From Halonotius aquaticus (lineage in GTDB: Archaea > Halobacteriota > Halobacteria > Halobacteriales > Haloferacaceae): a stretch of 64,000 nt of DNA. The stretch's first letter is position 1. Every line of letters starts with the position of its first letter. This document shows positions 61,711 through 64,000 of the stretch, piece after piece. The translations under genes and the position numbers were made by a program. The notes beneath the pieces were generated by a model. The model made no database searches, was not told the DNA's origin, and worked only from the letters and a program-made list of their open reading frames with translations. Location: contig NZ_QKNY01000005.1 of the NCBI RefSeq assembly GCF_003605575.1, positions 124,001-188,000 on the forward strand, written 5' to 3'.

Positions 61711-61836
61711 GAAATCCGCCCTCCCCGAATTGAACTCACTCACTCCCTGCGGTCGTTCGCTGCTCAATACGGGTCGGGACGGAGTTTACACTGCTCACTT
61801 ACGTTCGCAGGAAAATCCGCCCTCCCCGAATTGAAC
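61711..61836 (-). repeat. Duplicated 3' end of tRNA-Tyr
   Basis: A 24-nt block, part of the T arm and acceptor 3' strand of tRNA-Tyr, occurs at 61813-61836 (inside the gene) and identically at 61712-61735, offset 101 nt. The second copy is downstream of the tRNA in its own direction. The spacer is a GC-rich run of CACTC/TTCGC type. Confidence 0.8.
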
Positions 61837-61889
61837 GGGGGACAAGTCGATCTACAGTCGACTGCTCTACCAGGCTGAGCTAAGGGCGG
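61816..61889 (-). tRNA. tRNA-Tyr (GTA)
   Basis: A 74-nt cloverleaf: acceptor CCGCCCT/AGGGCGG including the C1-G72 pair typical of archaeal tRNA-Tyr, D stem GCTC/GAGC, anticodon stem GTCGA/TCGAC with loop CTGTAGA (anticodon GTA), T stem CCCCG/CGGGG, discriminator A. No intron is present and CCA is not encoded. Confidence 0.96.
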
Positions 61890-62006: not shown

Positions 62007-62588
62007 ATGAGTAAGATCACGTTCCGCGCCGACGATGACCTCGTTGGCCGGTTAGAGGCCTTCGACGCCTCGAAATCCGAGGTGATGCGGGAGGCGCTCC
62101 GCCAGTACCTCGACACCCAGGAACGTGAGACGGCCGCGCAAACGACGGACACACCCGCGCAAACGTCCGACACCGACTCGATCGACGACCTCATCGACGA
62201 GCGCATCGACCGCCTCGTCGACGAACGCGTCGATTCAGCGCTGGCGGCCTGCCGCGAACCGACCGACACCGCCACCGATGTGTCGGTCAATATCACCCTT
62301 GAAGGGGTCGATGAGACGGCCACAGTCACCGAGCAAACCATCGAGCGTAAGACGCCCGACGCCGAGAGCGATACACAGCCTGAACCGCCAGCCGACGCGG
62401 ATGCCGCCCACAGCTGCGGGCAGTGTGGCGAGGCCGTCGACAGCGACCACGTGTACTGTCCGAACTGCGGCGAAAAGGCCTCCCGGCGGCTGTTCTGTGA
62501 GTGTGGCGACGAGCTTCGATCGGACTGGGCGTTCTGTCCCGGCTGCGGCCGTCGCACCCCCGCGGCCGACGTGTTAGATAACCAATGA
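62007..62588 (+). CDS. cdrL: CdrL, RHH and zinc-ribbon regulator
   Basis: A 193-residue protein. Residues 1-35 (MSKITFRADDDLVGRLEAFD, SKSEVMREALRQYL) form a ribbon-helix-helix DNA-binding domain. A Glu/Asp/Thr-rich linker of about 95 residues follows with a short coiled stretch (DDLIDERIDRLVDERVD), then two zinc ribbons (Cys137, 140, 151, 154 and Cys164, 166, 177, 180). It lies just upstream of cdrS-ftsZ2, the conserved cell-division locus of haloarchaea, in the position of the gene called cdrL in Halobacterium and Haloferax. I infer that it controls the palindrome before cdrS. Confidence 0.85.
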   Translation: MSKITFRADDDLVGRLEAFDASKSEVMREALRQYLDTQERETAAQTTDTPAQTSDTDSIDDLIDERIDRLVDERVDSALAACREPTDTATDVSVNITLEGVDETATVTEQTIERKTPDAESDTQPEPPADADAAHSCGQCGEAVDSDHVYCPNCGEKASRRLFCECGDELRSDWAFCPGCGRRTPAADVLDNQ

Positions 62589-62639
62589 CAGACAGTTACC
62601 CCGATTGTACGGCTGTGTGTCTGCCACAATAAGGTGAAT

Positions 62640-62763
62640 GTCTTACATCCGCCAGTAATTTTATATACCCTCGGCATAGTGTTACGACTGCGTAAGACAA
62701 TCGTCTTACAGTGTGCCCGTCAGTGGCACGCTGTGGGGCTGTCGGCGTCGCCGACTGTCTTAC
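62640..62763 (+). promoter_or_regulatory. cdrS-ftsZ2 promoter with palindromic operator
   Basis: GTAAGAC-AATC-GTCTTAC (62692-62709) is a perfect 7-bp inverted repeat. The TATA-like TTTATATA at 62660-62667 would start transcription near 62688-62692, so the palindrome covers the start site. Two further GTCTTAC half-sites occur at 62640-62646 and 62757-62763. This looks like the operator of an RHH regulator such as CdrL or CdrS. Confidence 0.7.
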
Positions 62764-62777
62764 CGGGGAATGTAACC

Positions 62778-62960
62778 ATGGAGCGTGTGACACTACGAAT
62801 TCCAAAGCAGCAGATCGACGAGGTCGAGGAAATGGTCGAGACCGGCCAGTTCCCAAACCGGAGTGAGGCGATCCGGTCGGCCGTCCGAGAGATGCTCAAC
62901 GAGACCGAGAGTACAGAGCCGCGGCGAAACAAAAGCGAACGCAACTGGGCGAAGGTGTAA
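62778..62960 (+). CDS. cdrS: CdrS, short ribbon-helix-helix regulator of cell division
   Basis: A 60-residue RHH protein: strand MERVTLRIP, helix [19 protein letters not shown] turn and helix [12 protein letters not shown], then a short basic tail. In Halobacterium salinarum CdrS controls the tubulin homologue ftsZ2 and cell division. ftsZ2 starts 2 nt after its stop, so they are co-transcribed. The start is ATG 62778; the frame is open upstream to 62634 but crosses the promoter. Confidence 0.9.
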
Positions 62961-62962
62961 CT

Positions 62963-64000
62963 ATGCAGGATATCGTACAAGACGCCCTCGACAACGCGGA
63001 AGCAGAAGACCGTGACATGGATGCCAGCTTCGACGACGACGACGAGTTCGGCGATCCACGGATCGTCATCGTCGGCGCGGGCGGGGCCGGCAACAACACG
63101 GTCAACCGGCTGTATAACATCGGCGTCGACGGCGCGGAAACCGTCGCTGTCAACACCGACAAACAGCACCTGAAGATGATCGAAGCCGACACGAAGATCC
63201 TCGTCGGCAAATCCCTCACGCAGGGCCTCGGCGCGGGTGGCGACCCCTCGATGGGCGAACGCGCCACCGAGATGGCCCAGGGGACGATCAAAGAAGTGCT
63301 GGGCGACGCCGACCTGGTCTTTGTGACCGCCGGCATGGGTGGCGGCACCGGTACCGGCGCGGCTCCGGTGATCTCGGATATCGCCAAAGAACAGGGGGCG
63401 ATCGTCGTCGGCATGGTCTCGACGCCGTTCAACGTCGAGCGTGCCCGGACGGTCAAAGCCGAGGAAGGCCTCGAACGCCTCCGCAACACGGCTGACTCGA
63501 TCATCGTCCTGGACAACAACCGCCTGCTCGATTACGTCCCGAACCTCCCGATCGGCAAGGCGTTCTCGGTGATGGATCAGATCATCGCCGAGACGGTCAA
63601 GGGGATCTCGGAGACGATCACCCAGCCATCCCTGATCAATCTCGACTACGCGGATATGTCGACGATCATGAATCAGGGCGGCGTCGCCGTCATGCTGGTC
63701 GGCGAAACCCAGGACAAAAACAAGACCCAAGAGGTGGTCAGCGACGCGATGAACCACCCACTGCTCGATGTGGATTACCGCGGAGCGAGCGGCGGCCTCG
63801 TCCACATCACCGGCGGCCCCGATCTCACGCTGAAGGAGGCCGAGGGGATCGCCAACAACATCACCGAACGGCTTGAGGCGAGTGCAAACGTGATCTGGGG
63901 TGCCCGGATTCAGGACGAATACAAGGGCAAAGTCCGTGTCATGGCGATCATGACCGGCGTCCAGAGCGCACAGGTACTCGGCTCCACAACGCAGAAACAG
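62963..64000 (+). CDS. ftsZ2: Cell division protein FtsZ2, 5' part
   Basis: 346 codons are visible and the frame is still open at the window end. FtsZ2 is one of two tubulin-like GTPases needed for haloarchaeal division. Glycine-rich loops [17 protein letters not shown] (residues 34-50) and the tubulin signature GGGTGTG (126-132) bind GTP. The T7-loop area [17 protein letters not shown] supplies the catalytic acid for the next subunit. The N-terminus [20 protein letters not shown] and linkage to cdrS identify it as FtsZ2 rather than FtsZ1. The C-terminal extension lies outside the window. Confidence 0.96.

Follow-up and report, generated by a model that had tools for sequence, protein, structure and literature searches.

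The perfect palindrome GTAAGAC-AATC-GTCTTAC upstream of cdrS-ftsZ2 is real and nearly unchanged throughout the class Halobacteria, as judged by its class-wide conservation, and it is probably the core of a control element for this operon that works at two layers, DNA and RNA. We analyzed it in a window of 64,000 nucleotides from Halonotius aquaticus, which carries the following features.

62007-62588, plus strand: cdrL, encoding an N-terminal ribbon-helix-helix domain, the CdrL middle region and a C-terminal double zinc ribbon
62640-62646, plus strand: half-site U, GTCTTAC, preceding the TATA box (feature span 62629-62646)
62660-62667, plus strand: TATA box TTTATATA
62688-62692, plus strand: predicted transcription start, ~27 nt past the TATA centre, placed by TATA spacing
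62692-62698, plus strand: A, left palindrome arm GTAAGAC and 5' strand of the predicted leader helix P1
62703-62709, plus strand: B, right palindrome arm GTCTTAC and 5' base of the predicted leader helix P2
62733-62739, plus strand: M, internal partner site, here GTGGGGC, and 3' base of P2
62741-62755, plus strand: P3, short leader hairpin GTCGGCGTCGCCGAC, whose arms covary between species
62757-62763, plus strand: D half-site GTCTTAC, ahead of the cdrS start codon, and 3' strand of P1
62765-62769, plus strand: GGGGA block between D and the start codon, conserved in the leader alignment
62778-62960, plus strand: cdrS, encoding a 60-aa ribbon-helix-helix protein (RHH_1)
62963-64000, plus strand: ftsZ2, truncated by the window end

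The first-pass annotation had located the palindrome (62692-62709), the TATA box and the outer half-sites correctly, together with the gene order of cdrL, cdrS directly downstream, and ftsZ2. The cdrL product matches Pfam RHH_1, CdrL_M and DZR, all above cut-off, and the closest match to cdrS outside its own genome is from Halonotius roseus (98%). U has a weak left partner, ATAAGGT, 11 bp away, and the GGGGA block is possibly a ribosome-binding element. A tRNA-Tyr gene (61816-61889, minus strand) lies upstream of cdrL, and one extra GTAAGAC heptad within the cdrL coding region (62347-62353, minus strand) is probably there by chance.

At the base composition of the window, about 6 perfect 7-4-7 inverted repeats are expected by chance per 64 kb; one heptad occurring four times within 141 bp has an expectation of 0.011 (P ~6e-10). 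The dyad is the sole copy in the whole genome, even allowing up to two mismatches. The decisive evidence came from the comparison across haloarchaea that had been proposed as a check: of 392 Halobacteria genomes, 369 have the exact dyad GTAAGAC-N4/5-GTCTTAC, 367 of them as a single copy and 2 (G239 and G364) as two copies, and a reversed-pattern control matched in a single genome of the 392. Dyad positions were read, using cdrS upstream regions, in part of the 369 genomes, and in every one read the dyad sits at the cdrS-ftsZ2 start site, right behind the TATA box. Among 212 non-identical cdrS upstream regions, the spacer is 4 in 174, 5 in 17, 2 in 6, 6 in 4, and 3 in 2. The other 9 have no exact heptad pair, and those displayed have one arm intact and the other worn. 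In most of the exceptions that were read, the same heptads are set 2, 3 or 6 nt apart, or one of the halves is worn. The cdrS gene itself has a strong match in 388 of the 392 genomes and only weak matches in the other four; three genomes lacking the dyad have only weak cdrS matches. This conservation rules out a chance palindrome, and the single copy per genome rules out a repeat or mobile element. An intrinsic terminator of cdrL was also rejected, as 62692-62720 has no T tract and the element lies downstream of the TATA box.

Across loci, the palindrome most often lies 32 nt from the first base of the TATA box, which places the predicted start of transcription on the first bases of the palindrome and agrees with the original suggestion that the site covers it. 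A 5' UTR is reported at cdrS in Haloferax (legend of Fig. 2 in PMC8406309). The half-sites recur as well. U is exact in 73% of dereplicated CdrL-bearing loci, with an orientation that varies across species (55:39). D is exact in 112 of 123 leaders in a fixed orientation (112:2) and is retained in all 10 of the CdrL-less loci read, and M reads exactly GTAAGAC in 73 of the 123, again in a fixed orientation (72:1). Since U is conserved and yet untranscribed, DNA binding also appears to be under selection. In some genomes of one family (loci L061, L076, L150 and L156), GTAAAC / GTTTAC elements precede the half-site array.

CdrL was the reader first proposed for this site. Chromatin immunoprecipitation sequencing (ChIP-seq) of CdrL in Halobacterium salinarum recovered the cdrS-ftsZ2 promoter as the only reproducible target, at promoter resolution (PMC7439475), and the dyad lies at this promoter and is unique in nearly all genomes, as would be expected if the palindrome and half-sites existed for CdrL alone. 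We searched for CdrL with a full profile, since a search with Pfam CdrL_M under-counts it owing to the variable middle region. With the best 8 first-look candidates scored per genome, 378 of 392 genomes had a match and 14 did not. In two of the 14, the dyad and a good cdrS match are missing as well, but the exact dyad is kept in the other 12. In 9 of these 12, a single-sequence search that scored all candidates did not find CdrL either; one of the 9 gave a weak match to an unrelated zinc ribbon. For G137, G281 and G354, absence means that CdrL was not among the best 8 first-look profile candidates. The 12 genomes are scattered over eight genera and four families, and CdrL has therefore likely been lost several times. 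In two CdrL-less genomes (G002 and G092), a sequence like that of the tRNA neighbouring cdrL in other genomes lies beside the cdrS promoter, as if cdrL were cleanly missing. In five genomes of one genus (G073, G089, G190, G240 and G279, genus g8), the CdrL match falls into two weakly scoring parts, which suggests an insertion, a long linker or a frame break.

The site is thus not confined to genomes that encode a detectable CdrL, and related arrays occur outside the class, at cdrS promoters of loci lacking CdrL (below). For both reasons, CdrL cannot be the sole reason for the retention of the site, and a purely CdrL-dedicated operator is unlikely, although published ChIP-seq does place CdrL at this promoter in Halobacterium. 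U and M are rarer in CdrL-less genomes, as such an operator would predict, but this trend is confounded by family, and we dropped it as a sign of CdrL dependence.

The form of the site, 7-bp heptads in a 7-4-7 dyad, suits ribbon-helix-helix proteins, as the first-pass annotation had noted. What it had missed is the likeness to the heptad of CdrS. The Haloferax CdrS ChIP targets ftsZ1 and hisB carry dyads of the type GTCAGAC-N4-GTCTGAC, at distances that match the published -50 and -76 (Table 1 of PMC8406309). GTAAGAC and the CdrS-type GTCNGAC share the same 7-4-7 form with one base changed per heptad. Outside the class, 31 of 31 cdrS promoters, from other classes of the phylum, carry GTCNGAC heptads: 66 were found in the 130 nt before these genes versus 0.8 in shuffles, and none in 18.6 kb of distal control sequence. 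On the basis of PMC7439475, these genomes probably belong to methanogens and their relatives. All 31 loci have ftsZ downstream of cdrS, and no CdrL match was found in any of them. Heptad spacings are multiples of 11 in 28 of 32 cases (26 dereplicated loci), which fits dimers bound one turn apart on the same face of the DNA. Heptads in a 7-4-7 dyad or an 11-bp register are found on both sides of the class boundary. Most likely, the array is an ancient operator for ribbon-helix-helix proteins of the CdrS type, which CdrL later joined. Judged from protein sequence, the β-strand triad, R-T-R in CdrS and K-T-R in CdrL, is a possible basis for reading GTC versus GTA.

These observations could also be explained if CdrS alone read the dyad everywhere and CdrL was cross-linked at the promoter via CdrS or by hitch-hiking. 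CdrS is near-universal, its motif is arranged in the same way and differs by a single base, and the arrays outside the class are consistent with autoregulation. However, GTCNGAC is found at ftsZ1, hisB and the cdrS promoters outside the class, whereas haloarchaeal cdrS promoters consistently have GTAAGAC, which stays even in CdrL-less genomes. In addition, the 18 sites in the Haloferax CdrS ChIP table of PMC8406309 do not include the cdrS promoter. We regard autoregulation by CdrS alone as doubtful. The dyad's reader at haloarchaeal cdrS promoters could instead be a third protein.

The transcribed half-sites are also predicted to pair in an RNA fold, which the first-pass annotation had likewise not described. 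The leader in the window, spanning palindrome to ATG, is predicted to fold strongly (z -4.6), with M (GTGGGGC here, GTAAGAC in other species) pairing with B via G-U wobbles. Across 123 dereplicated leaders, compared with shuffles in which the heptads were held fixed and only the interior was shuffled, the mean z was -3.1, and 92 leaders fell below -2. In the predicted folds of these 123 leaders, A is paired to D in 110, and the partner of B lies in the interior in 111. In the 67 leaders with an exact M, native arms (the B/M-adjacent part of P2, and P3) outpaired cross-species swaps, with mean ranks of 0.30-0.33 compared with 0.48 and 0.58 for the negative controls, and position-wise pairing exceeded all permutations at P2 positions 2, 3 and 5. 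As the leaders share ancestry, these covariation statistics lend support but are not exact. In 107 of 122 leaders, the sense strand forms a better fold than its antisense counterpart (P 7e-17), whereas a coding control showed a ratio of 56:65 (56 of 121 sense-favoured). This strand bias favours RNA over a DNA-level repeat. Taken together, the strand bias, the covarying arms and a fold stronger than that of shuffled leaders suggest that the transcribed heptads form helix strands of a conserved leader RNA.

No Rfam family matched the leader at the gathering score. RNAalifold on a MAFFT alignment returned only an A:B hairpin with no covariation, probably because the variable hairpins were misaligned; the evidence for P2 and P3 comes from the heptad-anchored tests. 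Wobble-preserving changes at M were not discriminating (sense, 9 versus 2.3 expected; antisense, 7 versus 1.1), and single substitutions at M and D were too few to use.

If the heptads were kept for the leader RNA and DNA binding were incidental, the fixed orientation of the transcribed heptads, the strand-biased folding and the covarying arms would all follow, and the lack of an Rfam match has also been counted in favour. Against this, conservation extends to U, which precedes the TATA box, the heptads themselves show no compensatory change across species, the arrays outside the class are phased by 11 bp, and CdrL was found by ChIP on this DNA. We consider an RNA-only explanation very unlikely.

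The simplest account is the two-layer model, which accommodates both the DNA and the RNA evidence. A DNA-binding reader is argued for by the invariant heptad letters, the untranscribed U and the phasing outside the class, and a leader RNA by strand bias and covariation. Conservation, the identity and phasing of the heptads, and the predicted pairing with its strand bias are shown here; on this base, the model proposes a binding protein, a start site, an RNA fold and a regulatory effect. At the DNA layer, a CdrS-type array of 7-bp heptads would be centred on the transcription start, where dimers bound to it would obstruct or modulate RNA polymerase. In the likely ancestral state, CdrS would read such arrays at its own promoter. 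In haloarchaea, the heptad is GTAAGAC rather than GTCNGAC; CdrL would read it wherever it is encoded, and CdrS would likely read it in lineages that lost CdrL. At the RNA layer, A would pair with D, B with M plus a species-specific stem, and a small hairpin would complete a structured 5' leader that probably affects mRNA stability or translation. Three observations sit less well with this model: the absence of the cdrS promoter from the Haloferax CdrS ChIP list (as tabulated in PMC8406309), the difference between GTAAGAC and the CdrS GTCNGAC even without CdrL, and the RNAalifold result. A bolder version, which we offer as quite improbable, has the leader alternate between nested A:D and B:M pairing and A:B plus M:D pairing, with CdrS or CdrL binding to duplex or RNA selecting the state and so coupling promoter use to leader fate class-wide.

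Control of division-gene expression in archaea is largely open, and cdrS-ftsZ2 gains a defined, near-invariant cis element. The heptads point to a likely recognition code common to CdrS and CdrL (GTC versus GTA), provide evidence that CdrS autoregulation is older than CdrL, and accompany a conserved leader RNA at a division operon that has no Rfam counterpart. The element is a ready target for studies of division-gene switching in Haloferax volcanii or Halobacterium salinarum.

The closest known system is CdrL at the same locus in Halobacterium salinarum, where ChIP-seq found binding upstream of cdrS-ftsZ2 only (PMC7439475). The main text of that study gives no motif or operator, whereas a heptad dyad is defined here, and it describes CdrL in all sequenced Halobacteria, whereas 12 genomes with a cdrS locus have no detectable copy here. 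The Haloferax volcanii CdrS motif (PMC8406309) is likewise symmetric, and two of its targets yield a 7-4-7 GTCNGAC dyad, one base per heptad away from GTAAGAC; most of the targets it lists lie upstream of promoters, in contrast to the dyad over the predicted start. Omega (ParB) of pSM19035 also binds promoter arrays as ribbon-helix-helix dimers, one 7-bp repeat each, in variable orientation, but its repeats are contiguous, whereas the heptads here are about one helical turn apart or multiples thereof (PMC9499535); the homology claimed between Omega and CdrS/CdrL is of fold only. SegB of Sulfolobales is an archaeal ribbon-helix-helix protein that similarly binds palindromes next to its own genes and is linked to the cell cycle; unlike here, it recognizes a 13-bp TCTAGASTCTAGA motif at genome-wide sites and acts in chromosome segregation (PMC12284271). 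Structured 5' leaders in Rfam likewise place a conserved fold before an operon, but at cdrS-ftsZ2 the helix strands double as putative operator heptads.
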